Below, one piece after another: positions 19,860 through 35,356 of a DNA stretch of 47,458 bases. How positions within the stretch are numbered: position 1 is the stretch's first letter; the number at the start of each line of letters is the position of its first letter. This stretch comes from Ignavibacteriota bacterium (lineage in GTDB: Bacteria > Bacteroidota > Ignavibacteria > Kapaibacteriales > UBA2268), in the NCBI GenBank assembly GCA_024636855.1, contig JAGXGG010000045.1:1-47458 (forward strand), read 5' to 3'. The translations under genes were made by a program, and so were the position numbers. The notes under the pieces were generated by a model that was given only the letters and a program-made list of their open reading frames with translations, was not told the DNA's origin and did no database searches.

Positions 19860-21530
19860 TTACTCCTTCACTATTTCTCTTGAAGATATTCTGTATAATG
19901 ACTTTCCTTTACCGTAATAATCAGCAAAGAAATATACATAGTCTCCTAATAATACTATTTCTAGATAGAATCCATGTTCTATTTGGACTATATTAGTTGC
20001 ACCCTCAGGCATAATTATAGCTGTTCCTTCATCGGTAAAATCTGTTCTCCAGAACCGTCTATTGTCATTATTTGACTGCTCATTAAAGTATAAATAATCG
20101 CCTATTCTCTTCGTATATATAGGAGAATGAAGGTCATCTAATTCTCTATGAAATTCATAAGTACCATCTTCTGTACCATCTGTCGCCCAAAGTGTGTGTT
20201 CTGCAAAGCCATCATTTTCAACTGCAAAAAGGATTTTTCCATCAAGCATATCACCTTCAAACCATAATCCACCTTCTTCAACACCATCAATTGTTTCCTT
20301 TACCATCCGAGTCCCTTCGGGGGTGCCATCTGAAAACCATAGCTCTTCTCCGTATTCTTCTGTGGATGCTGCAATATACATTGTACTTCCTTCTATTATA
20401 CATCTATAAAACTGTATATTGTTCAGCTCGGGTGGTGTTAGTCGGACTGTCCCTTTAGTTGTACCATCAGTGCACCACAAGCTCACAGAATCCTCGTAAG
20501 TATCGCTCATAAAAAACAGTTTTTCTATGAATGGCTCATTTCTATAAAATTTATCCAATTGTGATGAGCCACCCGGGGTAATTTCCTTTAGAAATCTAGT
20601 TTTCTCTTTTGTACCATCTGATAACCATAACTGATAGTTACGTTCTCCTATTGGAGAGGCTTCGAAAAACAAATTATTATTCAATATACCGAGAGGTTTT
20701 AATCTGTTTAACTTCAACGAATCAGAATCCCGATTATAAGGATAAGTGTTTTCAATTGTACCATCTGATATCCAGAGATTGTAGTTATTTGAGTCATTTA
20801 TAACAAAATATATCATTGATAAGTATATATTAAAATAAATAGGTTCTTCTTGAAGTTGCCCCCATATTTCATCACTTAAAAGCTTATGAGTTCCTGAGGT
20901 TGTACCGTCTGAGGCCCAAAGGCTTGCGTTCCAACTCTTTTCTTCAGAGGCAAATATTATCTTGTCATTCAAAGATTGTAAATTTATTACATTATTAATT
21001 TCAAGGAAATCTAAGTCCACAGCCAATTTAGTCCCTTCAGGTGTTCCATCAGTTGACCATAATGCAAAACTTCCTTTTTCATCTTTAGCTTTAATATAGA
21101 GTTTATCTTGAAGTCGAGTTATTGGAGATTTATATGAATGTAGCTTCCCACCATAACCATACTCCACTATTTCAAGATGCTTAAGAAGTCTAGTCCCACT
21201 TTCAGTACCATCGGTTGACCACAATCCCATTCCTATATCATCTGTCGCCATAAATAATAAATATGAATCTAAATGTTCACTCAATACTAAGGGATCGGAA
21301 TTTCCATTTGGGTTTATGTCTTTTAGCAATTTCAATTCATTTTCATCATCAAATACCCATAACTCCAATCCATTTACTCCATCATCACAGTTTACATAGC
21401 CTATTTCGTTATGCTCTGTAAATCTATACCATTCCTTGTTCGTTAAGTCAACTCTCGAATGTTTATCGGGAACAATAGTATTGAAACTACAAGAAGTGGT
21501 AGTGATTAGAATTGTAAATATGATTAGCAA
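19860..21530 (-). CDS. ELWxxDGT-repeat lipoprotein lacking the T9SS tail (array member 7)
   Basis: This is the last gene of the array, 556 residues from the TTG at 21528-21530. It has eleven ELWxxDGT-type units (e.g. MGLWSTDGTESGTRLLK, EELWFSDGTPEGTRMVKE). Unlike its paralogues, its leader ends in a lipobox-like ITTTSC, so it is probably lipid-anchored, and it ends right after the last unit with LYRISSREIVKE. The final GTG AAG GAG TAA still matches the tail of its sisters, so the sorting domain appears deleted in frame. An ATT three codons upstream (21537-21539) gives IKYLLIIFTILITTTSC, matching the MKYLL start of array member 4 and adding the charged n-region; the real start may be this ATT. 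The AAGGAG SD at 21544-21549 is closer to ATT. Confidence 0.8.
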   Translation of the reverse strand: MLIIFTILITTTSCSFNTIVPDKHSRVDLTNKEWYRFTEHNEIGYVNCDDGVNGLELWVFDDENELKLLKDINPNGNSDPLVLSEHLDSYLLFMATDDIGMGLWSTDGTESGTRLLKHLEIVEYGYGGKLHSYKSPITRLQDKLYIKAKDEKGSFALWSTDGTPEGTKLAVDLDFLEINNVINLQSLNDKIIFASEEKSWNASLWASDGTTSGTHKLLSDEIWGQLQEEPIYFNIYLSMIYFVINDSNNYNLWISDGTIENTYPYNRDSDSLKLNRLKPLGILNNNLFFEASPIGERNYQLWLSDGTKEKTRFLKEITPGGSSQLDKFYRNEPFIEKLFFMSDTYEDSVSLWCTDGTTKGTVRLTPPELNNIQFYRCIIEGSTMYIAASTEEYGEELWFSDGTPEGTRMVKETIDGVEEGGLWFEGDMLDGKILFAVENDGFAEHTLWATDGTEDGTYEFHRELDDLHSPIYTKRIGDYLYFNEQSNNDNRRFWRTDFTDEGTAIIMPEGATNIVQIEHGFYLEIVLLGDYVYFFADYYGKGKSLYRISSREIVKE

Positions 21531-21540
21531 ATATTTAATA

Positions 21541-21780
21541 TTACTCCTTCACAAATTTTGCTATGTTATTGCCCTGCTCATCCACTACGAAGTACACACC
21601 TGAGTGCAGCTCTGCCACGTTCAACTTGTCGTTCTCAACAATGCCGTAGTCTTTAACTAAAGCACCAGTGCTATTGACTACGCTAAGCTGAATAGGTTTA
21701 TCTAGCTCTAGCTGTATGTAGTCTTTCGCAGGGTTGGGGTAAACTGTCATAAGTTCTGGTTGTGGGGTATCTTCGACTGA
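21541..21780 (-). repeat. conserved 240-bp T9SS-tail repeat, copy in member 6
   Basis: This is one of five closely similar 3' segments encoding SVEDTPQPEL through KFVKE plus stop. The DNA is more GC-rich and far better conserved between genes than the coding sequence before it. Confidence 0.75.
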
Positions 21781-23442
21781 ACTAATAGTATTTGGTATTC
21801 GGTAGAGTTGTACTTCCTCACCATAATAATTTGCAAAAAAGTAAATATAGTTTTTGAAATAAATAACCTTCGTTTCAGGATGCAACTCTTCTCTTCTTTT
21901 TAATCTAGGTGGCAATATTTTTTCAGAAATCCCACTGATTAAATCTGTTTTATAAGATAAAATGTTAGACATATCGTTTATTACATTATAAAATTGAAAG
22001 AAGATCTGATTATCATATCTTTTAACATTTGTAGAATTTATATAATTAATATGGGATATTTCATTATTTAGAATCCGAGTCCCATTTTCTGTTAGGTCCG
22101 TTATCCAAGGAGTGTAAGTCCTGTCTTCTTCACTTTTATTGAACAGAAATTTATTTTCAATTGTAGCTACTGGAGAAGAAACAATTACTCCTCTTATTTT
22201 ATTAATTACTTCATCAGAATAACCGTAAGTCACATAAGTATCCCTATTGACTGAACTTGAAGTGCCTAAAGTATAGACTAGAGTATCATTATAACTGAAA
22301 CTTGGAAATAAAGTGTATTCCTTTTCTTCTGTAAATATTATTTTTGTTTCTTTTTTCGTCCCATCTGTGCACCACATACTTGTCAAGTAAGTATTTTTAT
22401 CAGTTGTAGTAAAATAATAGTATTTATTCGGTTTACCAGAGATTGTGACACTTCTAAGCTCACTAATATCATATAAATCAAAATCTAATAATTCATTAGT
22501 TCCATTTTTTGTACCATCACTAACCCATAATGAAGTACTATTATTTTTATTCTTTGCTAAGAAAAAATTAAATGTTCCGGATATAAACCAATCTTCTGAA
22601 ACTGAATATAAGTAATCATTTAAACTTTTAAACCTGTATGTCCCATTTGTTGTACCGTTTGTAAACCAATATTCATTATAAGAAGTCGGTATATAAATTC
22701 CGTGATCGAATATATTTAATCTACTTTCAACCGGGTAATTGATTACTATGATACTATCTAAACTATCAATTGAATCATTAGTTGACCAAACTTCGTAATT
22801 GTCTGATCGGTTAGTAAATGTTACTACCAACTTATCATCAACAATAATCATCTTATCTAAAAATTTATATACAAATTCTTGTAATTTTGAAGTTCCTTCT
22901 ATTGTTCCGTCAGTACTCCATAATTCTATTTTATCAGTAATATGCTCACGAGTATTAGTTATAAAATAGACCTTATCTTTGAAAAAAACAAAGCCCCTTT
23001 GTTTATCATTCAATTCTCCATCCTCAAAATTATAATAATCAAAAAAGCTGCTTATTATTTTTATAGTTTCATTACCATTTGTAGCCCAAAGACTGTTGTA
23101 TTCTTTTCTGTTTGTTTTGTCTGTTTCAGTACTATCATCTGCAATAAATAACATATAATCATCTAAAGCTACACTTACAACAATAGGTTCCGAGCTACTA
23201 TAAGGATTAATATCTTTAAGAATTCTAAATCCTTCGGAGCTTCCATCAAAAACCCAAAGTTCCTCACCATGTGTGGGTTCGTAAGCATTTACATATATCA
23301 GCCCATTATGCTCTGTAAATTCTCTTCTTCCCAAATTCTTGAAGTCCTGAGTCGAATAGAGTTCTGGAGTTAGTATTGGTAGTTCAGCAAATAAGCTGAA
23401 TGGCAATATTAGCATAACTATAATTCTTATTATCTTCTTCAT
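21541..23442 (-). CDS. ELWxxDGT-repeat T9SS cargo protein (array member 6)
   Basis: A 633-residue secreted protein. I chose the ATG at 23440-23442 over a GTG 9 nt upstream because it gives a clean signal peptide (MKKIIRIIVMLILPFSLFA) and correct spacing from the AAGGAG at 23451-23456. The body carries about ten recognisable units, several degraded (SLWATNGNETIKI, EVWSTNDSIDS), making it the most diverged body that still has the standard tail. The 79-residue C-terminal sorting domain (SVEDTPQPEL, VYPNPAKD, GVYFVVDEQGNNIAKFVKE) marks it for type IX export. ELWxxDGT proteins are probably beta-propeller-like surface proteins of unknown role. It follows the unrelated 557-residue gene and the tail remnant. 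Confidence 0.88.
   Translation of the reverse strand: MKKIIRIIVMLILPFSLFAELPILTPELYSTQDFKNLGRREFTEHNGLIYVNAYEPTHGEELWVFDGSSEGFRILKDINPYSSSEPIVVSVALDDYMLFIADDSTETDKTNRKEYNSLWATNGNETIKIISSFFDYYNFEDGELNDKQRGFVFFKDKVYFITNTREHITDKIELWSTDGTIEGTSKLQEFVYKFLDKMIIVDDKLVVTFTNRSDNYEVWSTNDSIDSLDSIIVINYPVESRLNIFDHGIYIPTSYNEYWFTNGTTNGTYRFKSLNDYLYSVSEDWFISGTFNFFLAKNKNNSTSLWVSDGTKNGTNELLDFDLYDISELRSVTISGKPNKYYYFTTTDKNTYLTSMWCTDGTKKETKIIFTEEKEYTLFPSFSYNDTLVYTLGTSSSVNRDTYVTYGYSDEVINKIRGVIVSSPVATIENKFLFNKSEEDRTYTPWITDLTENGTRILNNEISHINYINSTNVKRYDNQIFFQFYNVINDMSNILSYKTDLISGISEKILPPRLKRREELHPETKVIYFKNYIYFFANYYGEEVQLYRIPNTISSVEDTPQPELMTVYPNPAKDYIQLELDKPIQLSVVNSTGALVKDYGIVENDKLNVAELHSGVYFVVDEQGNNIAKFVKE
21544..21549 (-). 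promoter_or_regulatory. SD inside the terminal codons of member 6
   Basis: AAGGAG, formed by the last two codons (Lys-Glu), lies 4 nt before ATT (21539) and 13 nt before TTG (21530) of the next gene. The spacing favours the ATT as the start. Confidence 0.5.
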
Positions 23443-23447
23443 TTCCC

Positions 23448-23480
23448 TCACTCCTTCACAAATTTAGCTATGTTAGCTAC
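23448..23480 (-). pseudogene. vestigial T9SS tail after the stop of the 557-residue gene
   Basis: Immediately after that gene's TAA, in the same frame, the codons read V-A-N-I-A-K-F-V-K-E-stop. The last 27 nt differ by one base from the end of array member 5. This is a remnant of the conserved sorting-domain terminus, left outside any gene but still supplying the SD for member 6. Confidence 0.7.
23451..23456 (-). promoter_or_regulatory. SD for member 6 within the tail remnant
   Basis: AAGGAG lies 8 nt upstream of the ATG at 23442, inside the orphan tail remnant. This is a likely reason for the remnant's survival. Confidence 0.6.
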
Positions 23481-25154
23481 TTACTTATTCAGTTTATACT
23501 TAACAAAATAGTAGTCATCTAGATTTAGTATAGTCCCATATATATTCTGTCCCAAACTTATTTGTTGACCAGGAGTATATGATACATATCCATCATTATT
23601 AAATAGTGAGACTTCCTCTAATTTCTTACCATCTACTAAGCTGAATTTCACTTTCCGTATCTCATCTTCCGGTTCAGTTGTAGTATAAATAAAAGTGATG
23701 TCATTATCTGTTATTGTAGGTTTTAGATAAAGTTCTTCTGGTAAATTATTTGACATCATGTTCGGTATATCTGTAGGACCGACATCTTTTACCAAATCCC
23801 TATCCTCAATTTCAGATGACCAAAGAAGATTCATTTCATTATCAATCGAGAATAGGTTGATATTTCTAAAATAATATTTGGTGACGATCATTGGATATGA
23901 ACTACTTTTAAATTCTGATTTGCCTGTTCTTGGATTGGTCTCAAAACTAGACTTACTACCTGATTCCGGTTTCATACTGAAAAATGAGTTTTCAGCAAAT
24001 ATTACAAGTCGATTGTCTTTTTCTATTACATTATTGATATTATTGAGTACTAATTCCAAATCCTTCAATTCTGGTTTATTTTTTATACACTCTTCTATTG
24101 GCTTTACAGTCAATTCAAATTCTAGAGTATTGATATCAGCTTTTATTTTAGCTAAGTGAGACACTTCTTCTTGGCTATAAAACTCACTACCATATTCCTC
24201 ACCGTATCCAAATAATTCTAAACTACCTTTGTTCTTTCCTTCTATCTTTGCAAATTTCTGAAAACGATAGTCCACATCAAAAGGTATTTCCTTTACTTTC
24301 TGTGCTAATTTTCCATCCGTTGTTATCTTGTTCACAGAGATATAATTCTTTTCTGTATTGGGATTATACCAAGCTGCAAGGAAAAGAGCGTATTCTTTCT
24401 GATATTCAGAATAAAGGATTGTGAGATCCTCAGTATCATCTATCAAACCAAATTCTATTCCTTTCGTATTAGTAGCATTTTTTGACATAGAGGATATTAG
24501 GATTATTTTCTCATCTTCATCATCAGGATAGAAAGTAATCCCAGAAGCAAGTGGATTAGTGTTTTCAAATACGTATGGTGAAACATCCATAGCTATTGGA
24601 AAAGTACTAACTTCAACTCCTAAGTCTTCTATATACTTTTCAGCATCAACACGTACAACTGACGCATCAAGCTTGGTTAGTTCTAACTCATCTATTATCT
24701 CTTCATCATCTAATTTTGAAGTTTGGAAAAGGAAAAGTAATTCATTCTTTTCGATTTTCTCATTATTAATATCAAACACTAACTTTCTAGCATACGAATC
24801 TCCTTTGCTAAAAACTCCAAACCCAACAACACCAGTCATCACCATTACTAGCTTATTATTTTCAACATTGTGAGTTACCATTCTTTCTACCATACTAGTT
24901 TTTAACTCACCTATTTCATCGATCTCATTTGTTTTACTGTCATATACAAAGAGTCCTATTTCTTCTCGAGTTTTAGTACCTATTATCACTCTATTCTCAT
25001 CAATTTTTGAAATAAAAACGGGTGGGTCATCGAACTCATAAGAGAAAAGTATTTCAGCACTATTCTCTATAGGAGCAAAATCGTCAGGTATATCAATTGT
25101 GTAAGCACTACTAAAAGTTAAAGTTAACAATACCAAAATTATAATTGTTTTCAT
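23481..25154 (-). CDS. secreted protein of unknown family inside the ELWxxDGT array
   Basis: A 557-residue protein starting at ATG 25154 (GAGGA SD 4 nt upstream) with signal peptide MKTIIILVLLTLTFSSAYT. It has no ELWxxDGT units and no sorting domain; it ends YYFVKYKLNK. The body is rich in alternating short strands (ILFSYEFDDPPVFISKIDE, RVIIGTKTREEIGLFVYD), suggesting a beta-propeller or beta-rich fold, with many Asp/Glu and no catalytic motif seen. I do not recognise a family. Without a tail or lipobox it is probably periplasmic. It is out of place among the paralogues, is 49 bp downstream of member 5, and is followed in frame by a remnant of their tail, which suggests it replaced or invaded a former array member. 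Confidence 0.75.
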   Translation of the reverse strand: MKTIIILVLLTLTFSSAYTIDIPDDFAPIENSAEILFSYEFDDPPVFISKIDENRVIIGTKTREEIGLFVYDSKTNEIDEIGELKTSMVERMVTHNVENNKLVMVMTGVVGFGVFSKGDSYARKLVFDINNEKIEKNELLFLFQTSKLDDEEIIDELELTKLDASVVRVDAEKYIEDLGVEVSTFPIAMDVSPYVFENTNPLASGITFYPDDEDEKIILISSMSKNATNTKGIEFGLIDDTEDLTILYSEYQKEYALFLAAWYNPNTEKNYISVNKITTDGKLAQKVKEIPFDVDYRFQKFAKIEGKNKGSLELFGYGEEYGSEFYSQEEVSHLAKIKADINTLEFELTVKPIEECIKNKPELKDLELVLNNINNVIEKDNRLVIFAENSFFSMKPESGSKSSFETNPRTGKSEFKSSSYPMIVTKYYFRNINLFSIDNEMNLLWSSEIEDRDLVKDVGPTDIPNMMSNNLPEELYLKPTITDNDITFIYTTTEPEDEIRKVKFSLVDGKKLEEVSLFNNDGYVSYTPGQQISLGQNIYGTILNLDDYYFVKYKLNK

Positions 25155-25203
25155 AAATCCTCATTTTTTGATTTTTATAATATCTGAATATAATGAATAA
25201 TTC

Positions 25204-27090
25204 TCACTCCTTCACAAATTTTGCTATGTTAGTACCTTGCTCATCCACAATGAAGTAAACTCCAGGGTAGAGAGTAGATACGTTGATTCTACCATCAGCT
25301 ATTTTCAACTCAGTAAGTTTTGTACCTACACTGTTGTAGATAGTTACTAATTTGCATTGCTCAATGTTGATATTCACATAATTAACTACTGGGTTTGGAT
25401 ATAGTTTATAATCATAGGTTGCTAATGGCTCAGTTTTCGTCGTAGTGTCTCCCACTTGTATGCGCCATAATTGTTCACCAATATCAAAATAGTTGGCAAC
25501 GAAATAAAGATAACCATTCAGCTCTCCAACAATAGTCGCTCCAGTTTCAAGTACAAATTTGTTTGGTCTTGTAGCTCCTGATGGCTCTACTCTAGTCAAC
25601 TCATCTGCATTGTCCAACAAAAACATGTAATTTTCTTTTATCTGGTAGCTTGGTATTACTAGGAGATAATCCCCATATTGACCAATATGGGTAAGCCCAT
25701 AATTTTTGAAATTCTTTATAAATGAAAACTCTGCAACTTGTTTTGTACCAACTTCAGAACCATCTGTCATCCATAATTCGTTAGGATTAATCCCATCATA
25801 ATAACTGAAAACAACGTTCCCATCAAAACTATTCTTGAAATTGAAATATACTTTTTCATTGGCTTCATTCATTGTTTTTATTTTGTAAGTACCATCTTTA
25901 GTTCCGTCACTCGTCCAGATAGAAAACACTCCCTCATCTGCATAATCACTGAAGTATAACTTATTACCCATTATAAAGTATTCTTCGAAATATACTGGTT
26001 CATCTGTTAGTTCATTGATTTCGAAAGTCCCGTCTTTAGTTCCGTCACTTATAAAGTTCCCCTTATAATTCACTTGAAATAAGAGCTTATCATTCCAGTT
26101 AACAATATCTTGAAGTGCATCTTCGGTTTCTAATAATAGTACAGTACCTTTGTCTGTTCCATCGGTAACATATAATTCATTATTCCAACCACCAAATAAA
26201 CTGAAATAAACCTTATCTTTAATCTTTGTGAATTTAGTCGGGTAGCCAGCTATATTTTTATCTTGTCCAAGAATTGGTATAGTGCCATCGAGCGTTCCAT
26301 CAGTTATAGAAAGGAATGTATAACCTGTATTTGTGATCGGATCAGAAAATGAGTTGACTATCAGTAATTGTCCAGTTAAATCAATATCTATAATATCTGA
26401 TTGTGCATCATCACCTTGGTAAATTCGAGTGCAACTATTTTTACTCCCATCAGTTGACCAAATCACGGATCTGAATCCTACATTCTGATTAGTTGTGAAT
26501 ACGAATCTATCTCCAGCATTATTAAAGAACCATGGACTAGAACCACCATCAACACCCAAATCCTGTATCATATAAGTACCATTGGGAGTGCCATCTGTCA
26601 CCCAAGGTTCGGAGCCGTGAATTCCATCATCTCCCGAGAAAATAATATTACCGCAATGCTCATGTGACTCTTGTTCATTTAGATAAGGTCCATATCCAAC
26701 ATGGGCAAAAACATTAGCCAGAAGAATTGTACCGCTTTTAGTACCATCTGTAGCCCATAAACTACCTTTACCATTCTCATCTTTTACTGAAAAAACTAAT
26801 TTATCCAGATTTGCCTTGAATATAAATATTTCAGAATTACCGTTGGGGGTGCAATCTTTGAGCATATAAGTACCAATAGGAGTTCCGTCACTTACCCATA
26901 GCTCACTGCCATGAGTATCATCAGCACCCCAAAAATAAATTTTATCTTTAAATATATACTTCTGATCATGATAATTATTGAAATTACCTTTTATAAAAAC
27001 TTTTTCCGAGACGAGTTCCGGCTCTATTTCTTTAACTTGTCCAAAAATACTAAATGGAATTAATATCAATAGTATTATTAACTTTTTCAT
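25204..27090 (-). CDS. ELWxxDGT-repeat T9SS cargo protein (array member 5, diverged tail)
   Basis: A 628-residue secreted protein with signal peptide MKKLIILLILIPFSIFG and about eleven units (e.g. SELWVSDGTPIGTYMLKD, FSIWTSDGTKDGTYKIKT). Its sorting domain differs from the other five: YKLYPNPVVNYVNINIEQCK and VSTLYPGVYFIVDEQG, rejoining the common sequence only in the last residues, TNIAKFVKE. Thus only about the last 15 codons are shared with sister tails. The N-terminal domain also departs from the group (no GHNG...LELWVF block). The start is 4 bp after member 4's stop, with the SD lying in member 4's terminal codons. It is predicted to be a type IX-exported surface protein; its role is unknown. 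Confidence 0.88.
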   Translation of the reverse strand: MKKLIILLILIPFSIFGQVKEIEPELVSEKVFIKGNFNNYHDQKYIFKDKIYFWGADDTHGSELWVSDGTPIGTYMLKDCTPNGNSEIFIFKANLDKLVFSVKDENGKGSLWATDGTKSGTILLANVFAHVGYGPYLNEQESHEHCGNIIFSGDDGIHGSEPWVTDGTPNGTYMIQDLGVDGGSSPWFFNNAGDRFVFTTNQNVGFRSVIWSTDGSKNSCTRIYQGDDAQSDIIDIDLTGQLLIVNSFSDPITNTGYTFLSITDGTLDGTIPILGQDKNIAGYPTKFTKIKDKVYFSLFGGWNNELYVTDGTDKGTVLLLETEDALQDIVNWNDKLLFQVNYKGNFISDGTKDGTFEINELTDEPVYFEEYFIMGNKLYFSDYADEGVFSIWTSDGTKDGTYKIKTMNEANEKVYFNFKNSFDGNVVFSYYDGINPNELWMTDGSEVGTKQVAEFSFIKNFKNYGLTHIGQYGDYLLVIPSYQIKENYMFLLDNADELTRVEPSGATRPNKFVLETGATIVGELNGYLYFVANYFDIGEQLWRIQVGDTTTKTEPLATYDYKLYPNPVVNYVNINIEQCKLVTIYNSVGTKLTELKIADGRINVSTLYPGVYFIVDEQGTNIAKFVKE

Positions 27091-27094: not shown

Positions 27095-27334
27095 TCACTC
27101 CTTCACAAATTTTGCGATATTAATTCCCAGTTCATCAACTACGAAGTAGACGCCGGAGTGTAGTTCTGCCACGTTCAGCTTGCCGTTATCTACTATGCCG
27201 TAGTCTTTTACCTTTGCGCCTGTACTGTTTATTATACTTAGCTGCATTGGCGTGCTTAGCTCTAGCTGTATGTAGTCCTTCGCTGGGTTTGGATAAACTG
27301 TCAATAGTCCTGGTTGTGGTGTATCTTCGACGGA
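27095..27334 (-). repeat. conserved 240-bp T9SS-tail repeat, copy in member 4
   Basis: This copy is nearly identical over long stretches to the copy at 30982-31221, including a shared run encoding KVKDYGIVDNGKLNVAEL, although the bodies of the two genes are clearly diverged. Confidence 0.75.
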
Positions 27335-29005
27335 GGTCTTGGAGTCACTTAAGCGGTATAGTTGGTGTCCTTTTCCATAGTAATCGGCGAAGAAAAACAC
27401 ATTACCTCTTAGTTGTACCATAAATTTCTTGTAGTATATCTGTTTTTTATTAGTGGCATCTAATGGCTCTATGATCGCACTGCCTGCTTTAGTCATATCA
27501 CTCCTCCAAAGTCTAGGATTGACCTCTCGGTTTTTACTCTCAACAAAATACCCGACACCGTTAATTATTTCACTGTCACCAATCTCTTCTGTAAATCCAT
27601 TTAAACTTTCGTCTAGGTTGAAAGTTCCTTCTTCTGTGCCGTCTGACATCCAAATAGAGTAAATATCTTCTTGTTTTCTAGTGCTAAATATCGCACTTCC
27701 ATATAGAAGAATATCAGAAAACGCAATCACAGATGAGTTCTTTCCGGGTTCTATATCTTTTACCATATAAACTGAGTCTTTGATTAAGTCTGCTACCCAT
27801 AGCTCTTGTCCAGTTTCTGAAATATCATTTGCAAAATAGAACTTTTCATTATCAAGTAAGTAGTCATCATAATCTCTGACGTTATACTTTACAGTTGGAT
27901 TAACTACCCTAGTGTTTGTAGTGGTTCCATCTGACACATATACTTTATTACGGCCAAATTCATCTTCAGCCAAAAGAGTAAGTTTATCCGGCTTTTCGGA
28001 AGAATTTTGTAAATACTCTGGGTCAGAGTCACCATCTGGGTTTATATCTTTTAGCATATAAGTACCTTCGTCTGTACCATCGGTTACCCATGGTTCATTT
28101 CCAGAATTATTTTCTGACCCACAGAAATATAGTTTATCATTATAAACAATGTGACAATCACCACTAACAACGAACGATTCTTTATTTTTAACCAATTGTT
28201 TAGTGCCTTCTTTGGTTCCATCTGTAACCCACAATTGAATATCAGAAAACAATTCTTTTGAGTAAGGAAAAAATAATTTGTCCCCGATTATTACATCAAA
28301 AAATCTACCATTCAGTCCTATGGATCCTCTATCTGCAATTTTCATTGTCCCTTCGGTTCTACCATCAGTTGACCATAGCTCTGATTCTGAAAATCCACCT
28401 CTACCTTGAAAAAAGAAAGTAAGCTTTTCACCTAATAGTTGAAATCTATAAGGCTGATTCGAAAAATTTTTTTCAAATACATATATAACTTTAGTTCCTT
28501 CGGTTGTACCATCAGTTGACCATAGAGCAAGGTCAGAGAGAGTTTCAACTGGTTCAATGTAATAAACCCTATCTTTAAATTTTTTAATATTCTGAAAGTA
28601 TCGAGATGTTAATCCATTTGTACCACCTCTGAAATTTAATGTTCGTTTTATTAAAGTTGTCCCTTCTTCAGTTCCATCAGTTCTCCAAATCCCACTGCTT
28701 GTATCATCTTCGGCAGAGAATAATATAAAATCATCCATTTCAGTATTGATTATCATTGGATTCGAATCACCATTAGGGTTTATATCTTTTAGCATGTGCA
28801 TATCATCTGTCCTCCCATTGAACACCCATAACTCTCTACCATGAATGCCATCATCACAGCTAACATAAGCCAATCCATTATGAGTAACAAAATTATAATC
28901 GCCTTTATTACCATCAAATTTAAAATCATGATACAACTGGGGTTCCAAAGATTGAAGAGATATTACAGATAATATCATTATTGATAATGTTAATAGGTAT
29001 TTCAT
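27095..29005 (-). CDS. ELWxxDGT-repeat T9SS cargo protein (array member 4)
   Basis: A 636-residue secreted protein starting MKYLLTLSIMILSVISLQS, with its own AAAGGA SD 3 nt upstream because a 72-bp gap separates it from member 3. It has eleven units, among them GIWRTDGTEEGTTLIK, QLWVTDGTKEGTKQLVK and EPWVTDGTDEGTYMLKD. Two units are followed by an Asp/Asn-rich loop (DINPNGDSNP, DINPDGDSDP) that may bind calcium. It carries the standard 79-residue tail, here SVEDTPQPGLLTVYPNPAKD to GINIAKFVKE. It is intact and probably exported by T9SS to the cell surface. The gap upstream of it contains the 12-nt palindrome 29065-29076. Confidence 0.9.
   Translation of the reverse strand: MKYLLTLSIMILSVISLQSLEPQLYHDFKFDGNKGDYNFVTHNGLAYVSCDDGIHGRELWVFNGRTDDMHMLKDINPNGDSNPMIINTEMDDFILFSAEDDTSSGIWRTDGTEEGTTLIKRTLNFRGGTNGLTSRYFQNIKKFKDRVYYIEPVETLSDLALWSTDGTTEGTKVIYVFEKNFSNQPYRFQLLGEKLTFFFQGRGGFSESELWSTDGRTEGTMKIADRGSIGLNGRFFDVIIGDKLFFPYSKELFSDIQLWVTDGTKEGTKQLVKNKESFVVSGDCHIVYNDKLYFCGSENNSGNEPWVTDGTDEGTYMLKDINPDGDSDPEYLQNSSEKPDKLTLLAEDEFGRNKVYVSDGTTTNTRVVNPTVKYNVRDYDDYLLDNEKFYFANDISETGQELWVADLIKDSVYMVKDIEPGKNSSVIAFSDILLYGSAIFSTRKQEDIYSIWMSDGTEEGTFNLDESLNGFTEEIGDSEIINGVGYFVESKNREVNPRLWRSDMTKAGSAIIEPLDATNKKQIYYKKFMVQLRGNVFFFADYYGKGHQLYRLSDSKTSVEDTPQPGLLTVYPNPAKDYIQLELSTPMQLSIINSTGAKVKDYGIVDNGKLNVAELHSGVYFVVDELGINIAKFVKE
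27098..27103 (-). promoter_or_regulatory. SD inside the terminal codons of member 4
   Basis: AAGGAG (Lys-Glu codons) precedes TGA and then the ATG of member 5 at 27090, with 7 nt between SD and ATG. Confidence 0.6.
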
Positions 29006-29064: not shown

Positions 29065-29076
29065 GGCACTAGTGCC
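29065..29076. repeat. 12-nt perfect palindrome between array members 3 and 4
   Basis: GGCACTAGTGCC lies 1 nt after the stop of member 3 in the only junction (72 bp) with a long gap between two ELWxxDGT genes. No T-run follows, so termination is doubtful; it could be an mRNA processing or protein-binding site. Confidence 0.45.
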
Positions 29077-29077
29077 C

Positions 29078-29317
29078 TCACTCCTTCAAGAATTTTGCTA
29101 TATTATTTCCCAGCTCATCAACTACGAAGTACACGCCGGAGTGTAGCTCTGCTACATTCAACTTACCGCCTGCTACCATTCCATAATCTTTTACCTTTGC
29201 GCCAGTGCTGTTGATTATGCTCAGCTGCATCGGCTTACTAAGCTCTAATTGAATATAGTCCTTCGCTGGGTTGGGATAAACCGTCATTAGTTCTGGTTGT
29301 GGTGTATCTTCGACTGA
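29078..29317 (-). repeat. conserved 240-bp T9SS-tail repeat, copy in member 3
   Basis: This is the same 79-codon module as in members 1, 2, 4 and 6, with the local variant KFLKE at the end. The similarity extends upstream into the shared QQLYRIPNTISS. Confidence 0.75.
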
Positions 29318-30976
29318 ACTGATAGTGTTCGGGATTCGGTAGAGTTGTTGCCCTTCGCCGTAGTAGTCTGCGAAGAAGTAGATGTTATTAAAGAGCTCTA
29401 TCTGAAAAAACTGAATTGGGTTGACATGATAACTGCTTGTTTGATTTTTTGGCATTATAATACTAGTTCCTTGCTTAGTCATGTTTGTTTGCCACATTCT
29501 CACAGTATCAGCTACACTCTCTTCAGCAAATAATAACATATTATTATACTGATTCGTGTAAAAAGACATATGTGTTAAATCATTCAACCCTGGGTTAAGT
29601 TTAAAAGTTCCATTCTCAGTGCCATCACTTATCCAAGTTGAAGCTACTCCGTTTTCATCATCAACATAGAAAAGAACTTTTCCTTCTATGATAATAGAAG
29701 AGAACCACAATCCTGAACCTTTAGTACCATCAACTATGTCTTTGACTAAATGAGTTCCTTGCTCTGTCCCATCTGATACCCATAGTTCATCGCCGTGCTC
29801 ATCATCTGTAGCTACAAAGAAGGTCTTTAAACCACTTTGAGCTGACATCCGAACGTTTATATTTTTTAAGGATTCTGCAATTTTCTTTGTATTTTTATCC
29901 GTTCCGTTAGATATCCAAAGGCTGTAATTACCTTCCTCTACTAAACTAAAATAAAGGTTCTGTTCTTCTGTTCCTTTATTTGACATCAAACTTAATTCAG
30001 AGTTAGGGTCTAAAGATATTGTATTAACTTGTCTTGTTCCATCAAGGCTGCCATCACTAACGAATAACCCCAATTCACCACTAGTAAATCTACCCGAGAA
30101 ATATAACTTACCTCCTAACAAAGAAGCAGGACTCAGGTTCAATTTTAATCCATCTGAATTATTTATCAATTGGATAGTACCCTCAATAGAACCATTGGTT
30201 GACCAAAGTACATTTTTCTGATTAGAAGTATCTATTATAAAAATATGTTCATGTACATCTTTAGAATAAAAAAAGCTGTTTGGAACTATAGTGGCGAAGT
30301 CGAGTAATTTAATTGTATTCTCCTTTGTTCCATCGGTTGACCATATATCTGGAGTATCATTGAGTCCATTAAAAACCTGAAAATATAATTTATCTTTTAG
30401 TAGTTGTAGATTATAGGGTCTAGAAGATTTATCTGTATATATATCTTTAATTAGTACCGTACCTTCGGGAGTTCCATCCGTTTTCCATAACTCTTCATCA
30501 AACATTTTTGGCTCACTAGCAGAGAAATACACTTCATTATTATATTTTATAAATTGTTTGTCACTCTCTTTAAGTACTCCATTCCAATTTGCTATTTCAA
30601 ATTGGAGTTCTTTTAATTTGACAGTTCCTTCGGGAGTTCCGTCAGTGGACCAAAGCGCAGTCCCATTTTCATCTTTTGCGATAAATAATAATTGATGGTC
30701 TAATTCATTACTTACGATTAATGGGTCAGAATCCCCATTAGGATTTATATCTTTAACCATTCGCATACTATTCATATTACGGTTGAACACCCAAAGCTCT
30801 AAGCCATGAACTCTATCATCAGCACTCACATAAACTTTTCCATTATGCCCCATAAAGTTTTTGCTTAAAGTATATTCGAAGTTTATGTCACTATGTAACT
30901 CCGGCTCTATCACATTAGTTTGACCATACATATAGAATGGAATTAATATCAATATTATTCTTATTAAGTTTTTCAT
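29078..30976 (-). CDS. ELWxxDGT-repeat T9SS cargo protein (array member 3)
   Basis: A 632-residue secreted protein. The ATG at 30974-30976 is preferred to a GTG 9 nt upstream because it starts the signal peptide MKNLIRIILILIPFYMYGQ and sits 8 nt from AAGGAG. It has eleven units (TALWSTDGTPEGTVKLK, EELWKTDGTPEGTVLIKD, DELWVSDGTEQGTHLVKD). It is closest to member 1: both share the order and wording of several units (WSTDGT.ENTI.LLDFA, NQKNV.WST). It carries the standard sorting tail ending NNIAKFLKE, with Leu for the usual Val. It is probably exported by T9SS. Confidence 0.9.
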   Translation of the reverse strand: MKNLIRIILILIPFYMYGQTNVIEPELHSDINFEYTLSKNFMGHNGKVYVSADDRVHGLELWVFNRNMNSMRMVKDINPNGDSDPLIVSNELDHQLLFIAKDENGTALWSTDGTPEGTVKLKELQFEIANWNGVLKESDKQFIKYNNEVYFSASEPKMFDEELWKTDGTPEGTVLIKDIYTDKSSRPYNLQLLKDKLYFQVFNGLNDTPDIWSTDGTKENTIKLLDFATIVPNSFFYSKDVHEHIFIIDTSNQKNVLWSTNGSIEGTIQLINNSDGLKLNLSPASLLGGKLYFSGRFTSGELGLFVSDGSLDGTRQVNTISLDPNSELSLMSNKGTEEQNLYFSLVEEGNYSLWISNGTDKNTKKIAESLKNINVRMSAQSGLKTFFVATDDEHGDELWVSDGTEQGTHLVKDIVDGTKGSGLWFSSIIIEGKVLFYVDDENGVASTWISDGTENGTFKLNPGLNDLTHMSFYTNQYNNMLLFAEESVADTVRMWQTNMTKQGTSIIMPKNQTSSYHVNPIQFFQIELFNNIYFFADYYGEGQQLYRIPNTISSVEDTPQPELMTVYPNPAKDYIQLELSKPMQLSIINSTGAKVKDYGMVAGGKLNVAELHSGVYFVVDELGNNIAKFLKE

Positions 30977-30981
30977 TTTCC

Positions 30982-31221
30982 TCACTCCTTTACGAATTTT
31001 GCTATGTTTTTATCTAGTTCATCTACTACGAAGTACACGCCGGAGCTTAGCTCTGCCACGTTCAGCTTGCCGTTATCTACTATGCCGTAGTCCTTTACCT
31101 TTGCGCCAGTGCTGTTGATTATACTCAGCTGCATAGGTTTTTCTAGCTCTAGCTGAATGAAATCCTTCGCGGGGTTGGGATAAACTGTCATTAGTTCTGG
31201 TTGTGGGTTTTCTTCGACTGA
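30982..31221 (-). repeat. conserved 240-bp T9SS-tail repeat, copy in member 2
   Basis: This copy shares long identical DNA stretches with the one at 27095-27334. Variants include EENPQ for EDTPQ and an AAA-TTC-GTA ending. Confidence 0.75.
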
Positions 31222-32865
31222 ACTGATAGTGTTCGGGATGCGGTAGAGTTTTCGCCCTTCGCCGTAGTAATCTGCGAAGAAGTAGATATTATCTTTGTAT
31301 TCGATTTGAAAAGAAAAATATTCATCTACATGAACATCATTTTTTTGGTCTTTGGGCATTATTTTATAAGTGCCTTCTTCTGTCATATCAGTTCGCCACA
31401 ATCTAAAAGTATTATCATTACCCATTTCTCTAAAGTAAAGTATATCATTTATTACATTTTCATGATAAAACATTCTATATAAGTTTCTCAGTTCAAAGTT
31501 CAATATATAAGTACCTGCTTCTGTACCATCAGTAATCCAGATTGATTTTACACCTTTGTCATTCTCATATAAAAATAGAACCTTATCGCTGACAACTTTG
31601 TCACTGAACTCGATTCGTGCTCTATCATTACCGACAGAAAGGTTCTTTACAAATTTTGTGCCTTCCGCGGTACCATCAGAGACCCAAAGATCTTCTCCTT
31701 TAACTTCATCGAAAGTAACAAAAAACAATTTATCTGAATTATCACTTTCGACAGAATTTGATGATATATAGTTTATTTCATTAGGTGAAATCTTAACTGT
31801 ACCTTTTTCTGTGCCATCGGTTACCCATAGACCATTATTTCTGTATAATCGAAAGAAGAGTTTTTGTCCACTCCCATTATTATTTGATAAAAAACCCAAC
31901 CCGTCATCTTGAGAGTCTTCGAAGAATTTTAACTCCTTTGTACCCTCATAAGTTCCATCGGTTACAAGTAACCCTTTATTATAATCCTTGGTAGTACCTT
32001 GCATATACATTTTATTTCCATTAAATCTGTAAGTTGGATAGCTTACATTGTAATCATTAAATTTATTAGTTAAGGGTGAAGTGCTTTCAATAGTTCCATC
32101 CGTTGACCACAGTACTTCAGTGTCTCCTAGACTTTCTATAAAGAAGTCATAAGAAGAGTTCCAACCTCTCAAATCATTAGAACTAAATTCTGGTCTATTA
32201 GTTATTTTTATCGTATTTTCTTCTGTGCCATCGGTTGACCATATATCCGACGGTCCCCTATTTGTATAAAACAAGAGTTTTCCATTTCTTATGTGAAAAC
32301 TAGAAGGTAATGATGATCCATTTGGATTCAAATCTTTAACTAGTACCGTACCTTTAGAAGTACCATCAGTTTTCCATAATTCATAATCTACATCTTCAAC
32401 CCCAGAGGCATAAAAATAAAACTCATCTTTATAGACCCTGTTCAGACTCCAGTAATTTCTTTCAACCGCCGAATGAGAATGTATTGGGTAAAAGTAATGC
32501 AATAATTTTGTTCCACTATCAGTACCGTCTGTTAACCATAGCCCCTTGCCCTTTTCGTCTATTGCGTAAAACAATAATCCAGCATTTAGTGTATTATTAA
32601 TAACAATTGGCCTCGAATCTCCATTTGGATTTATATCTTTTACCATTCTTAAACTATTGTACGTTTCATCAAAAACCCAGAGTTCCAAGCCATGCACTCC
32701 ATCATCGGCTATAGTATAGACTAGACCATTATGCTCAATAAAATCGTAAGTCGAATCACGTTTAGCAAACGTTATGTCACTGTGTCGTTCGGGTTCTAAG
32801 ATTTTCGCCTGTACAAACGAACTAAATAGTATTAGTAATAATAGTATTTTTATTAAGTTTTTCAT
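30982..32865 (-). CDS. ELWxxDGT-repeat T9SS cargo protein (array member 2)
   Basis: A 627-residue secreted protein with signal peptide MKNLIKILLLLILFSSFVQA. It has eleven units, such as KGLWLTDGTDSGTKLLHY, YELWKTDGTSKGTVLVKD and EDLWVSDGTAEGTKFVKN. Asp/Asn/Gly loops follow the first and third (DINPNGDSRP, DLNPNGSSLP). The terminal module reads SVEENPQPELMTVYPNPAKD to KNIAKFVKE. The start is 4 bp after member 1's stop, so translation is almost certainly coupled. Predicted type IX export to the surface; no enzymatic residues are recognised. Confidence 0.9.
   Translation of the reverse strand: MKNLIKILLLLILFSSFVQAKILEPERHSDITFAKRDSTYDFIEHNGLVYTIADDGVHGLELWVFDETYNSLRMVKDINPNGDSRPIVINNTLNAGLLFYAIDEKGKGLWLTDGTDSGTKLLHYFYPIHSHSAVERNYWSLNRVYKDEFYFYASGVEDVDYELWKTDGTSKGTVLVKDLNPNGSSLPSSFHIRNGKLLFYTNRGPSDIWSTDGTEENTIKITNRPEFSSNDLRGWNSSYDFFIESLGDTEVLWSTDGTIESTSPLTNKFNDYNVSYPTYRFNGNKMYMQGTTKDYNKGLLVTDGTYEGTKELKFFEDSQDDGLGFLSNNNGSGQKLFFRLYRNNGLWVTDGTEKGTVKISPNEINYISSNSVESDNSDKLFFVTFDEVKGEDLWVSDGTAEGTKFVKNLSVGNDRARIEFSDKVVSDKVLFLYENDKGVKSIWITDGTEAGTYILNFELRNLYRMFYHENVINDILYFREMGNDNTFRLWRTDMTEEGTYKIMPKDQKNDVHVDEYFSFQIEYKDNIYFFADYYGEGRKLYRIPNTISSVEENPQPELMTVYPNPAKDFIQLELEKPMQLSIINSTGAKVKDYGIVDNGKLNVAELSSGVYFVVDELDKNIAKFVKE
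30985..30990 (-). promoter_or_regulatory. SD inside the terminal codons of member 2
   Basis: AAGGAG precedes TGA and the ATG of member 3 at 30976, with 8 nt between SD and ATG. Confidence 0.6.
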
Positions 32866-32869
32866 GTCC

Positions 32870-33109
32870 TCACTCCTTCACGAATTTTGCTATGTTATTG
32901 CCCTGCTCATTCACTACGAAGTACACACCAGAGTGTAACTCTGCTACGTTCAGTTTTCCGTTCTTTACTAAGCCAAAGTCTCTTACTTTAGCACCAACGC
33001 TGTTGACTATGCTTAGCTGCATTGGCTTGCTAAGCTCTAACTGAATGAAGTCCTTCGCTGGGTTTGGATAAACTGTCATTAGTTCTGGTTGTTCACTTTC
33101 CTCTACTGA
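32870..33109 (-). repeat. conserved 240-bp T9SS-tail repeat, copy in member 1
   Basis: This copy encodes SVEESEQPELMTVYPNPAKD to NNIAKFVKE. It is slightly more diverged than the copies in members 2 and 4 (KVRDFGLVKN in the middle). Confidence 0.75.
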
Positions 33110-34765
33110 GCTGATAGTGTTAGGGATGCGGTAGAGTTGTTGTCCATTACCGTAATAATCTGCGAAGAAGTAGATGTTATCATCTAGTTCTGTATAAAAC
33201 ACATAAATATGAGCATGATTAGGGAGTATATAATCTGGAGGCATTACTAATTGAGTCCCCTCTGATGTAAAATCAGAATACCAAATTCTTGTTGTATCAG
33301 AAGTACTCATTTCTACGAAAAGTATGTTGTCTTTAGTCAGTTTATTTGTATTAAGATCAGTAGATAAATCTGTCAAACCCTCTTGTAAAATTTTAGTTCC
33401 TACCTCTGTACCATCTGTTACCCACTCTGTATAATTTTGGGGACTTGTTACTGTTGTGAATAGTGCTTTTCCCTCTTTCATATTTGGAAAAAACCAAATG
33501 TCAGAGCCAATAGGTCCCTCAACAATATCTTTTACAATGTGAGTCCCATCTTTTGTACCATCAGATACCCAAAGTTCTTTGCCATGTTCATCATCAGTAG
33601 CCACAAAATAAGCTGTTGTGCCATCTTCAATAAACTTCTCAGAATTTAAATATTTTAGTGATTCTGTAATTTTAATTGTACTCTCAGAAGTCCCAGAAGA
33701 TATCCAAAGCCATTGATTGTCATCCTCTACTATGCTGAAGAATAAATTCTGTTCTTCTTTATTGAAAGATGTAAATATACTCAATTCTGAATTAGAGTTT
33801 TCAGATAATACTTTTAGTTTTTTTGTCCCTGCTAATGTACCATCACTTGTAAATAATGCCAATTCACCATTTGGGAATCTACCTGAGAAATATAATCTAC
33901 TTCCTAAAAGAGCAATAGAATTCAGATCCAAATCAAATCCATCTAAATTATTAGTCAATGGAATAGTACCATCAGGAGAACCATCGGTCGACCAAAATAC
34001 ATTTTTCTGATTAGCAGTATCTAATATAAAAATATGCTTGTGAAATTCATTTAGAGAGTAATAATAACCGTGGGGTATTACCATAGCGAAATCGAGTAAT
34101 CTTATCGTATTTTCAACTGTACCGTCTGTTGACCATAATTCACTAGTATGATCATTATTATTTAAAACTTGGAAAAAAAGCTTATCATTTAACAGTAGTA
34201 AATTATATGGCTCAGAGGGATACTGAGTATCAATTTCCAAAAATAAAACTGTTCCCTCAGCAGTTCCATCAGTTTTCCAGAGATCATAGTTCCTTTCACC
34301 TGGAATTGATGCTGAGAAATAAACTTCCCCTTTATACATTACAAATTTATCAGAACTATTCGTTACTCCAAATCTACTACCAAAATCTAAGTCCAAATTC
34401 TTTAAGAGTTGTGTTCCTTCTGGTGTTCCCTCAGTAGTCCAAAGCCCATAACCAATTTCGTCTTTTGCTATAAAAAGTAAAAAATCCTCAAAACCGGTAT
34501 TTACGACTACTGGTTTATTAGTTATATGTTGATTTATATCTTTGAGCATAACAAAAGTATTGTTTTCCTTATTAAAAACCCATAGTTCTATTCCATGCTC
34601 ACCGTCATCTGAATTGAAATAGAGAAGTCCGTTGTGTTCTGTAAAATGGGATCCTCCTCTATTTAAAAAAGTCTTTGAGTTAATAAGCTCTGGTTCTAAT
34701 ACATTTGCTTGACCGAACAAACCGAATGGGATTAAAACTATTAGAATTACTATTATCTTTTTCAT
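32870..34765 (-). CDS. ELWxxDGT-repeat T9SS cargo protein (array member 1)
   Basis: This is the first repeat protein after the acetyltransferase, 631 residues, with signal peptide MKKIIVILIVLIPFGLFGQ. Eleven units are spaced about 50 residues apart from about residue 59 to 548 (IELWVFN, GLWTTEGTPEGTQLLK, KELWVSDGTKDGTHIVKD, then QQLYRIPN), followed by the sorting tail at 553-631. The start is preceded by GGAGGGAGGA, an unusually strong SD for a Bacteroidota-like genome. ELWxxDGT proteins are named for the repeat only; the fold is probably beta-propeller-like and the function is unknown. It is co-directional with the acetyltransferase gene, 15 bp away. Confidence 0.9.
   Translation of the reverse strand: MKKIIVILIVLIPFGLFGQANVLEPELINSKTFLNRGGSHFTEHNGLLYFNSDDGEHGIELWVFNKENNTFVMLKDINQHITNKPVVVNTGFEDFLLFIAKDEIGYGLWTTEGTPEGTQLLKNLDLDFGSRFGVTNSSDKFVMYKGEVYFSASIPGERNYDLWKTDGTAEGTVLFLEIDTQYPSEPYNLLLLNDKLFFQVLNNNDHTSELWSTDGTVENTIRLLDFAMVIPHGYYYSLNEFHKHIFILDTANQKNVFWSTDGSPDGTIPLTNNLDGFDLDLNSIALLGSRLYFSGRFPNGELALFTSDGTLAGTKKLKVLSENSNSELSIFTSFNKEEQNLFFSIVEDDNQWLWISSGTSESTIKITESLKYLNSEKFIEDGTTAYFVATDDEHGKELWVSDGTKDGTHIVKDIVEGPIGSDIWFFPNMKEGKALFTTVTSPQNYTEWVTDGTEVGTKILQEGLTDLSTDLNTNKLTKDNILFVEMSTSDTTRIWYSDFTSEGTQLVMPPDYILPNHAHIYVFYTELDDNIYFFADYYGNGQQLYRIPNTISSVEESEQPELMTVYPNPAKDFIQLELSKPMQLSIVNSVGAKVRDFGLVKNGKLNVAELHSGVYFVVNEQGNNIAKFVKE
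32873..32878 (-). promoter_or_regulatory. SD inside the terminal codons of member 1
   Basis: AAGGAG precedes TGA and the ATG of member 2 at 32865, with 7 nt between SD and ATG. Confidence 0.6.
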
Positions 34766-34780
34766 GTCCTCCCTCCTAAA

Positions 34781-35356
34781 TTATTTTTGTTGAATTTTCT
34801 CTTTTAATTGCTTTTCTAACTCTAGTAGGTTTCTGCTTCTTTCTTTTATTGGTTTTGCTGGGTTGCCAGAGTAAATCATAAATTCCACACAATCTCTATT
34901 TACCAAGCTGAGAGCACCTACCGCACATCCTATATGCAAAGTAACTCCAGGTAATATAACACACCCACTGCCGACTAAGGCATGTTTTTGTAAAGTAACT
35001 GGAGCCGAAGTCACATTTGTGAACTCAGATGGTACAGTAGGATTTGTCATATAATTCCCAAAATAGTCATCATTACTAGAGTAAACTGCCGTCCGCGATG
35101 AGATGCCACTGAAATCTTCTAGAGTTATCTTCCCGTCTCCTTGGAGCGAGACGAAGATGGCTAGATGAACGTAGTTACCTATCTCTATACCGCTTGCTCC
35201 TGCTGATAGGACACAATAATCATCTATCCTAACATTATTAGCAATTGATATCCTAGACACTCCGTAAAGGGAAGTCTTTCTGCTTATCAGTACATTCTTC
35301 CCTAATGATTTGAAGCCAATTGCTTTGAGTTCTTCTTCTGTATAAAATGATGTCAT
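34781..35356 (-). CDS. hexapeptide-repeat (left-handed beta-helix) acetyltransferase
   Basis: A 191-residue cytoplasmic enzyme of the LbetaH acyltransferase superfamily. Imperfect hexapeptide turns are visible from about residue 20 to 165 (NVRIDDYCVLSAGASGIEIG, NYVHLAIFVSLQGDGKITLE, HALVGSGCVILPGVTLHIGC), ending with the typical YSGNPAKPIKERSR. Members O- or N-acetylate sugars for polysaccharide or glycan synthesis; the loop SNDDYFGNYMTNPTVPSEF resembles sugar-acetyltransferase active-site insertions. It heads the ELWxxDGT array 15 bp before member 1 and has a TAnnTTTG element close upstream, so it is probably the first gene of that operon. It may modify a glycan carried by the exported proteins, but this is inferred from position only. 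Confidence 0.85.
   Translation of the reverse strand: MTSFYTEEELKAIGFKSLGKNVLISRKTSLYGVSRISIANNVRIDDYCVLSAGASGIEIGNYVHLAIFVSLQGDGKITLEDFSGISSRTAVYSSNDDYFGNYMTNPTVPSEFTNVTSAPVTLQKHALVGSGCVILPGVTLHIGCAVGALSLVNRDCVEFMIYSGNPAKPIKERSRNLLELEKQLKEKIQQK

Follow-up and report, generated by a model that had tools for sequence, protein, structure and literature searches.

Seven tandem ELWxxDGT genes in an Ignavibacteriota genome: a predicted 11-bladed propeller fold and cassette-like gene junctions

The window analysed here is the whole 47,458-nucleotide contig JAGXGG010000045.1 of an Ignavibacteriota bacterium (GCA_024636855.1), one of 110 contigs of a 3.1-Mb genome (G000) that was compared with three genomes of the same genus (G001, G002 and G003). 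On its minus strand, between positions 19860 and 34765, lie seven genes (E1 to E7) for proteins with the ELWxxDGT repeat. The explanation that we favour, with moderate confidence, is that they form a probably cotranscribed tandem family of type IX secretion system (T9SS) cargo, built as 11-bladed propellers, in an array renewed by duplication, loss and recombination at the junctions between genes. The predicted 11-bladed fold and the cassette-like junctions are the best of the new content. The array itself is real, and was somewhat misdescribed in an earlier note made from the sequence.

The ELWxxDGT genes

All seven products score above the 65-bit curated cut-off of TIGR04534, the ELWxxDGT family (92-219 bits), and all seven frames are open and run in the same direction. 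From the upstream end these are E1 (32870..34765, with a T9SS sorting domain at 32873-33112), E2 (30982..32865; 30985-31224), E3 (29078..30985, with a likely ATG start at 30976; 29081-29320), E4 (27095..29005; 27098-27334), E5 (25204..27090, whose sorting domain is divergent), E6 (21541..23451; 21544-21783) and E7 (19860..21530), which lacks such a domain and was recognised by profile scores and the repeat model described below. The seven genes are not all adjacent, as the earlier note had drawn them: a gene overlooked there, X (23481..25154), sits between E5 and E6, and its product is not an ELWxxDGT protein. The minus-strand order is rqcH (with NFACT domains), the acyltransferase gene AT, E1, E2, E3, E4, E5, X, E6, E7 and a gene for a 1057-residue tetratricopeptide repeat (TPR) protein.

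Six of the proteins have 627-636 residues, so that their length is near-constant, and E7 is shorter (556 residues). From AT to E7 the intergenic gaps measure 15, 4, -4 (5 from the likely ATG of E3), 72, 4, 49, 29 (38 from the likely ATG of E6) and 10 bp; five of the eight are thus 15 bp or less, which corrects the 3-15 bp first given for most of them. The longest gap, between E3 and E4 (29006-29077), carries a perfect 12-bp palindrome (GGCACTAGTGCC) adjoining the stop codon of E3.

Repeat units and predicted fold

Units were counted as anchors of a hidden Markov model (HMM) built from the repeat units of the genus, which may miss divergent units. Eleven anchors were detected in E1, E2, E3 and E7, ten in E4, and nine each in E5 and E6; in the last three proteins the missing anchors are accounted for by degenerate units, for which double spacings (one in E4) or the stretch remaining ahead of the sorting domain leave room. 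All seven therefore fit eleven units, as had been estimated for them.

A structure was predicted with AlphaFold for E3 from 34 sequences, seven from the window, ten from the genus and 17 others (mean pLDDT 85.6, pTM 0.76). Its strands fall into eleven groups of four and, on our reading of the strand list, the last blade is completed by an N-terminal strand (residues 29-36); completion of the last blade by such a strand is how a propeller ring is closed. Structural matches to the model are mostly propellers. Foldseek against the PDB placed SorLA and sortilin on top (E 1.8e-11 and 2.4e-11), with a template modelling (TM) score of about 0.45 (0.43-0.46) in both directions, and VIA-align matched the model to sortilin over 400 residues spanning model residues 26-558 (Z 13.4, root-mean-square deviation 4.9). 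The next rows of the latter search include peptidase propellers, with Z of at most 12.6 and over shorter stretches. A fold missing from these lists was taken as evidence neither way.

From the model, each ELWxxDGT protein is probably one large, closed, 11-bladed beta-propeller, predicted as such for E3 and by extension for the others. The unit number, which the earlier note had called fixed, is so by the repeat count, and the E3 model supplies a structural reason: it is probably fixed because a ring of eleven blades must close. Unrelated folds among the seven, named beforehand as one outcome that would speak against one system, are very unlikely at pairwise identities of 24-56%, with one fold (E3) modelled. 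Two points weigh against the closed single ring. LRP6, which has two rings, matches the E3 model with a Foldseek E-value near those of SorLA and sortilin, at a TM score of about 0.2; and ring closure rests on strand order and a full-length sortilin alignment of modest TM score (about 0.45), for the one protein modelled.

Other searches were less informative. A PDB sequence search with the ELWxxDGT profile gave a single match under 0.001, the lipase 7pzj (E 1.1e-4), aligned at the sorting domain; weaker matches to sorting-domain, LRRK2 and designed-trefoil entries were not used. A viral fold library returned for E3 mostly phage and fibre proteins, with TM scores of 0.13-0.39 among the best 50, lower than those from the PDB and explaining the model no better.

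The resemblance to the Vps10p proteins sortilin and SorLA lies in the best solved match over the whole propeller, a very large ring, and a conserved motif in the C-D hairpin of the blade. The differences are the blade number, eleven as against the ten of sortilin (PMC2716378, cited portion), and an identity of 8-13%. Nor do the ELWxxDGT units conform to the Asp-box as given in the cited portion of that paper, their profile being L-W-x-[ST]-D-G-T-x-x-G-T instead of S-x-D-x-G-x-T-W. Architectures with eleven blades have been named as new and hypothetical in the Encyclopedia of Domains (TED) and CATH v4.4; these share the blade number of the E3 model, and both are predicted. In the cited portions of these two sources (PMC7618865, PMC11701635), single-chain 11-bladed propellers have so far been named from predictions only. 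The part of PMC9218822 used here describes a 12-bladed ring, assembled by oligomerisation, as the largest known.

Conservation is uneven within the blade. Mean pairwise identity among the seven paralogues is 0.57 in the C-D turn, which holds DGTxxGT, and 0.20-0.24 in the other loops; by strand it is 0.15 in A (the inner strand), 0.36 in B, 0.48 in C and 0.24 in D. Asp-box propellers have a structurally conserved bottom, and known structures use the variable top alone for function (PMC2716378, cited portion). The present pattern could fit a frame that is conserved and a tunnel and top that vary, though the A-B loops, which in a propeller lie on the side of the conserved turn, are variable too. 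By analogy with sortilin, the wide ring may offer a surface for ligands, and fold and location together suggest a possible ligand-binding role.

Outside the genus, unit numbers differ. A scan of the genome collection gave at least 488 relatives, of which the best 80 were kept, as 79 loci (74 of them outside the genus) with flanks of up to 10 kb. Twenty ELWxxDGT proteins from outside the genus have at most 700 residues (three are cut by contig ends) and carry eight anchors in eight cases, nine in ten and ten in two; the 59 longer ones carry 14-35, save for one with nine. Eleven anchors, counted with the genus-built HMM, were found in none of these 79 proteins, which share with the array the repeat itself and, in some cases, a T9SS-like tail. 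At six further loci of the class, proteins of 497-1052 residues gave 4-10 anchors, counts so low that the HMM must be missing units. Separately, in 38 of the 59 longer proteins (within L059-L130) 17 or 18 units were detected. This is roughly double the 8-9 found in the smaller class and may hint at rings that come in pairs.

Export signals

T9SS type A sorting domains (TIGR04183/PF18962) were found above the NCBIfam and Pfam cut-offs in six of the seven proteins, E1 to E6, and by the same profile searches were not detected in E7 or X. SprA, the T9SS translocon, is above cut-off in all four genus genomes, and at least 150 sorting-domain matches were counted in G000, where 150 of 246 candidates were scored; display on the surface through T9SS is for these reasons the natural reading. 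E1 to E6 would accordingly be exported and fixed to the cell surface by the sorting domain, and the proposal of a surface system is borne out to this extent.

The lipobox first ascribed to one of the seven proteins is, in E7, a weak one. Lipoboxes follow a charged n-region and have the consensus L-[AS]-[GA]-C; the N-terminus of E7, MLIIFTILITTTSC, has a TTG start, an uncharged n-region and T-T-S-C, with T at position -3. E7 is probably a lipoprotein or a periplasmic protein. The Q-rule of signal peptidase (PMC5837995, cited portion) matches by eye four of the seven mature ends.

The ELWxxDGT type of sorting domain appears to be private to the family: of its 27 matches in G000 at E 0.001, eight have at least 65% identity, all of them ELWxxDGT copies (two probably being halves of one gene), E5 stands at 45%, and the remaining 18 at 42% or less. 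Elsewhere in this genome, the left end of contig C58 and the right end of C18 hold ELWxxDGT genes with an exact 137-bp overlap of the contig ends inside a sorting domain. They are probably a second, two-gene array split by the assembler. An exchange between distant loci, suggested by the near-identical sorting domains of C58 and C18 (p 3e-40), was dropped on account of this overlap.

Junctions with built-in Shine-Dalgarno-like sequences

Eighteen of 23 ELWxxDGT copies in the genus end in Lys-Glu; four others are cut and one ends otherwise. The terminal pair is encoded by AAGGAG in 15 of the 18 and by AAGGAA in three, whereas AAGGAG encodes only four of 70 internal Lys-Glu pairs (p 2e-16). The stop codon follows directly, and at nine of eleven junctions between ELWxxDGT genes the next start is 3-5 bp away. 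Even E7, without a sorting domain, ends in Val-Lys-Glu with AAGGAG. In both the window and G003 the stretch separating AT from the array has AGGAG[GT]GAGGAC at its end, and resembles these junctions.

The codons at the end of most copies may thus also serve the following gene as a Shine-Dalgarno-like sequence. Further support comes from the 23448..23480 region (minus strand), where X is followed by a relic of the 3' end of an ELWxxDGT gene (VANIAKFVKE and a stop), placed so as to supply the ribosome-binding-like sequence and hence the start signal of E6. A similar relic follows X in G003 (AAVKAKFVKE and a stop before the next ELWxxDGT gene), with the next start further off. Probably an ELWxxDGT gene was lost or replaced after X and its end was kept. 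If the last codons serve the next gene, copies could be added or lost without breaking expression. Two considerations weigh on the other side: the copies are related, so that the p value for the terminal codons overstates its strength, and Bacteroidota-type bacteria are thought to depend little on Shine-Dalgarno pairing.

Probable recombination at the gene ends

The signal peptides and sorting domains differ in history from the cores in several copies. Fourteen triplets were picked by hand; in each, one copy is set beside a paralogue from its own genome and, from another genome, the copy with the orthologous (or nearest) core. In the signal peptide of E5 in G003, 17 sites agree with the upstream neighbour only and none with the orthologue only, the core having 64 and 710 such sites (p 3e-18); for G001 the corresponding figures are 11 and 0, with 93 and 613 in the core (p 4e-10). 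Sites in the sorting domains of two G001 copies, G001_z and G001_a, favour G001 paralogues over the core orthologues (for example 37 to 10 and 37 to 16; p 2e-10 and 7e-13). In the window the shift is weaker for the E2 sorting domain (28 to 19 sites with E4, p 7e-6; 24 to 18 with E3, p 0.02), and that of E4 shows it marginally or not at all (p 0.04 and 0.16). The sorting domain of E5 in G003 still favours the orthologue.

The DNA itself points the same way. Signal-peptide sequences 95-96% identical (6/6 and 6/7 at fourfold sites) stand beside cores of 43-44%. Common tracts that begin in a sorting domain and reach over the gap into the signal peptide of the following gene measure 366 bp at 89% in G001 and 395 bp at 80% in the window; a tract in G003 (86 bp at 92%) covers the starts of two genes. 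Recombination of signal peptides and sorting domains between paralogues is supported by these comparisons in the two sister genomes, and is weakly indicated in the genome of the window.

Several results count against this reading. The triplets overlap and their p values are uncorrected for multiple tests. Nine signal-peptide tests had enough sites, and beside the two strong ones and one with p 0.03 there are six above 0.05. The sorting domain of G003_C differs in proportions from its core (p 2e-4 to 6e-4), with the paralogues not favoured. Mean sorting-domain identity, calculated without E5, E7 and copies outside arrays, shows a clear excess within the genome in G001 only (90.5% within, 78-79% between); the values are 81.3% within and 79.2-79.7% between for G000 (fourfold sites 0.57 and 0.55-0.60), and 79.4% within (fourfold sites 0.60) and 78.1-79.7% between for G003. 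Global homogenisation of the sorting domains in G000 is thus not supported, identity within being about that between genomes, and selection alone could keep these domains similar.

Such near-equality in G000 and G003 is what would be expected of an ordinary old paralogue family, formed by tandem duplication and divergence, with ends kept alike by strong purifying selection; neither a recombination system nor a special role of the junctions would then be needed. T9SS sorting domains also cluster elsewhere in G000, for example three within 3.6 kb on contig C56. This simpler account does not sit well with signal-peptide and sorting-domain histories that conflict with the core in G001, and for the E5 signal peptide also in G003, nor with signal peptides nearly identical down to their fourfold sites beside cores so diverged; we regard it as a serious, if rather improbable, alternative.

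Copies that are alike at their ends and variable in their cores, together with the recombination at junctions of sister genomes and the turnover from species to species, might also suggest switching or antigenic variation, in which recombination at the junctions would change the propellers made within a population. Seven open frames in one direction leave no obvious silent copies, no recombinase family was found among the array genes with Pfam and NCBIfam, and among the 25 of 57 inverted-repeat pairs listed no strong pair bounds a promoter. We think switching improbable, the most so of the explanations considered. In Porphyromonas gingivalis some surface proteins are likewise exported by T9SS and diversified by recombination; there, according to the cited portion of PMC5266723, domains or alleles are rearranged or exchanged between strains, whereas here the exchange would involve junctions within one array.

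Distribution and turnover

At E 0.001, ELWxxDGT matches occur in five of 60 relatives: G000, G001 and G003 among the four genus members, and two of the other 56. Of 294 genomes sampled from the class, 19 have a match at E 1e-5, G000 included. The 79 best loci of the collection scan come from several bacterial phyla and archaea, and by a simple motif 24 of the 79 outside-genus relatives have a T9SS-like tail. Only four of the 74 outside-genus loci have two or three ELWxxDGT genes within the flanks; the seven at one locus here are the largest set found. In the literature library searched, 'ELWxxDGT' was found in no paper, and other spellings gave none on the repeat.

The array of G003 has the same order, with AT (91%), five ELWxxDGT genes, an orthologue of X (75-77%) and the TPR gene (96.5%). 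E5 (81%) is the sole ELWxxDGT gene with a clear one-to-one orthologue there; the other four reach no more than 39, 31, 57 and 42% to their closest counterparts in the window. One contig of G001 carries four ELWxxDGT genes (two cut), including an orthologue of E5 (79%), so that E5 is the only array member with a clear one-to-one orthologue in both genomes; another carries an E7 orthologue (87%, cut) with the same C-terminus and other neighbouring genes. In a tree of the cores the well-supported groupings are E5 of three genomes, E7 with its G001 counterpart, C58 with G001_C41, E2 with G001_z, and G003_C with G001_a; nine of its 20 inner branches have good support, and the position of several long ones is unsure. 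From the orthology comparison and this tree, each species keeps a partly different ELWxxDGT set. This is best explained by an array that turns over by duplication, loss and recombination, the flanks staying fixed while the set of binding proteins varies between species.

The favoured explanation would then work as follows. Tandem genes for T9SS cargo, probably cotranscribed, would each yield one large, probably closed, 11-bladed propeller, whose wide ring may serve as a ligand surface like that of sortilin. Six of the products would be exported and fixed on the cell surface by the sorting domain, E7 being probably a lipoprotein or periplasmic. Each junction, consisting of a sorting domain, a short gap and the next signal peptide, would be a homologous stretch at which copies may cross over or convert, and the terminal codons, as start signal for the next copy, would permit gain or loss of copies. 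The flanks of the locus would remain constant as the set of binding proteins changes between species.

A bolder version would make the locus a repertoire generator: single-chain 11-bladed propellers with a sortilin-like wide tunnel would each be carried on a cassette whose export ends stay constant and whose own ribosome-binding site serves the next cassette, and junction recombination would deal new receptor sets within a population while the borders stay fixed. We offer it as speculation that is unlikely to hold in full.

The acyltransferase and gene X

AT (34781..35356, minus strand) heads the array, as the earlier note had it, lies 15 bp upstream of E1 and encodes a left-handed beta-helix (hexapeptide) acyltransferase (Pfam Hexapep). 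Its product aligns over residues 1-185 of 191, nearly its full length, with PDB entry 3vbi (E 4e-51, 87 of 182 aligned residues identical). The entry is labelled a galactoside O-acetyltransferase; we take it to be AntD, the N-acyltransferase of D-anthrose synthesis in Bacillus cereus, which presumably acts on a dTDP-amino sugar. By this likeness AT would transfer an acyl group to an amino sugar that is nucleotide-bound and destined for a surface glycan; action on the propellers is not required.

Among the 60 relatives, orthologues of AT (86-91%) occur only in G002 and G003; with weaker acyltransferase matches included, 12 genomes have one. In G000 and G003 the gene adjoins the array with an identical 15-bp gap. 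In G002 it follows a methyltransferase gene, several genes from rqcH and right where a contig stops; that genome gave no ELWxxDGT match, the assembly breaking nearby. Conversely, G001 has ELWxxDGT genes and no AT orthologue was found there (best match 34% over 62 residues), the assembly again breaking nearby. The contigs of G002 and G001 that carry the TPR gene break inside it, and because these assemblies are broken both absences stay open.

The dedicated role given to the acetyltransferase at the outset is therefore not upheld by the search of related genomes, and the tie between AT and the array appears loose. These data also bear on the idea of a dedicated operon for glycan display or binding, with AT making an acylated sugar as the ligand or the anchor of the propellers. 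The conserved adjacency in G000 and G003 and the likeness of AT to an acyltransferase of nucleotide-amino sugars (its substrate presumed) would suit such an operon, as would the anchoring of type A T9SS cargo to a lipopolysaccharide in Porphyromonas. The separate occurrence of AT and ELWxxDGT genes in G002 and G001 does not, and profile searches found no other known sugar-metabolism gene inside the array; we judge such an operon quite unlikely.

X encodes a 557-residue protein with a signal-peptide-like N-terminus and no Pfam or NCBIfam match at E 0.01. Its family was found in this genus only, in four of the 60 relatives, with one or two copies per genome (including L137-L141). The structure model is poor (pLDDT 31, from a two-row alignment), and PDB profile matches of partial coverage (E of 0.0056 or higher) were not believed. 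Both AT and X were probably captured as guests at gene junctions.

Transcription

No terminator-like site was found on the minus strand in 19500-35800; the seven found in this region, where 6.5 were expected, all lie on the opposite strand. Promoter-like sites number 87, a little more than in shuffles (69.5, standard deviation 9.4). One of the best, TTCAAA-18-TATAAT at 35403..35432 (minus strand), lies just before AT, within a block of about 130 nucleotides upstream of the gene that aligns with G003, where the hexamer spacing is 16; sequence further upstream does not align. Co-transcription, as proposed in the earlier note, is made plausible by the lack of minus-strand terminator-like sites and by this shared block, and we treat the locus as a plausible single transcription unit. 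The pattern TTTG-18..22-TAnnTTTG, which we take to be the Bacteroidota promoter, occurs 11 times in the window (1.8 in shuffles) and was not used; its two minus-strand matches in the array lie inside the coding sequences of E4 and E1, and none precedes AT.

Other features of the window

Scans for tRNA and Rfam RNAs found none in the window. The minus-strand gene at 5345-7150 encodes a product with a TMEM260-like protein O-mannosyltransferase domain, and glycosylation of surface proteins may occur in this organism. At 7151-12595 on the same strand, a single frame of 1814 residues fuses a protein resembling UDP-glucose dehydrogenase to a repeat protein that has its own signal peptide and a T9SS tail. 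G003 encodes the dehydrogenase in a gene of its own (446 residues), and the gene after it matches the 5345-7150 gene of the window. A run of ten A at the join in 7151-12595 suggests a stop codon lost by slippage, or an assembly error.

Meaning of the predicted fold and junctions

The E3 model gives the ELWxxDGT proteins a predicted fold and would explain their fixed number of repeats. If the ring is closed as predicted, they would provide a natural family for the 11-bladed propeller, and the cassette-like junctions offer a testable model of how surface proteins may be renewed in bacteria with type IX secretion.

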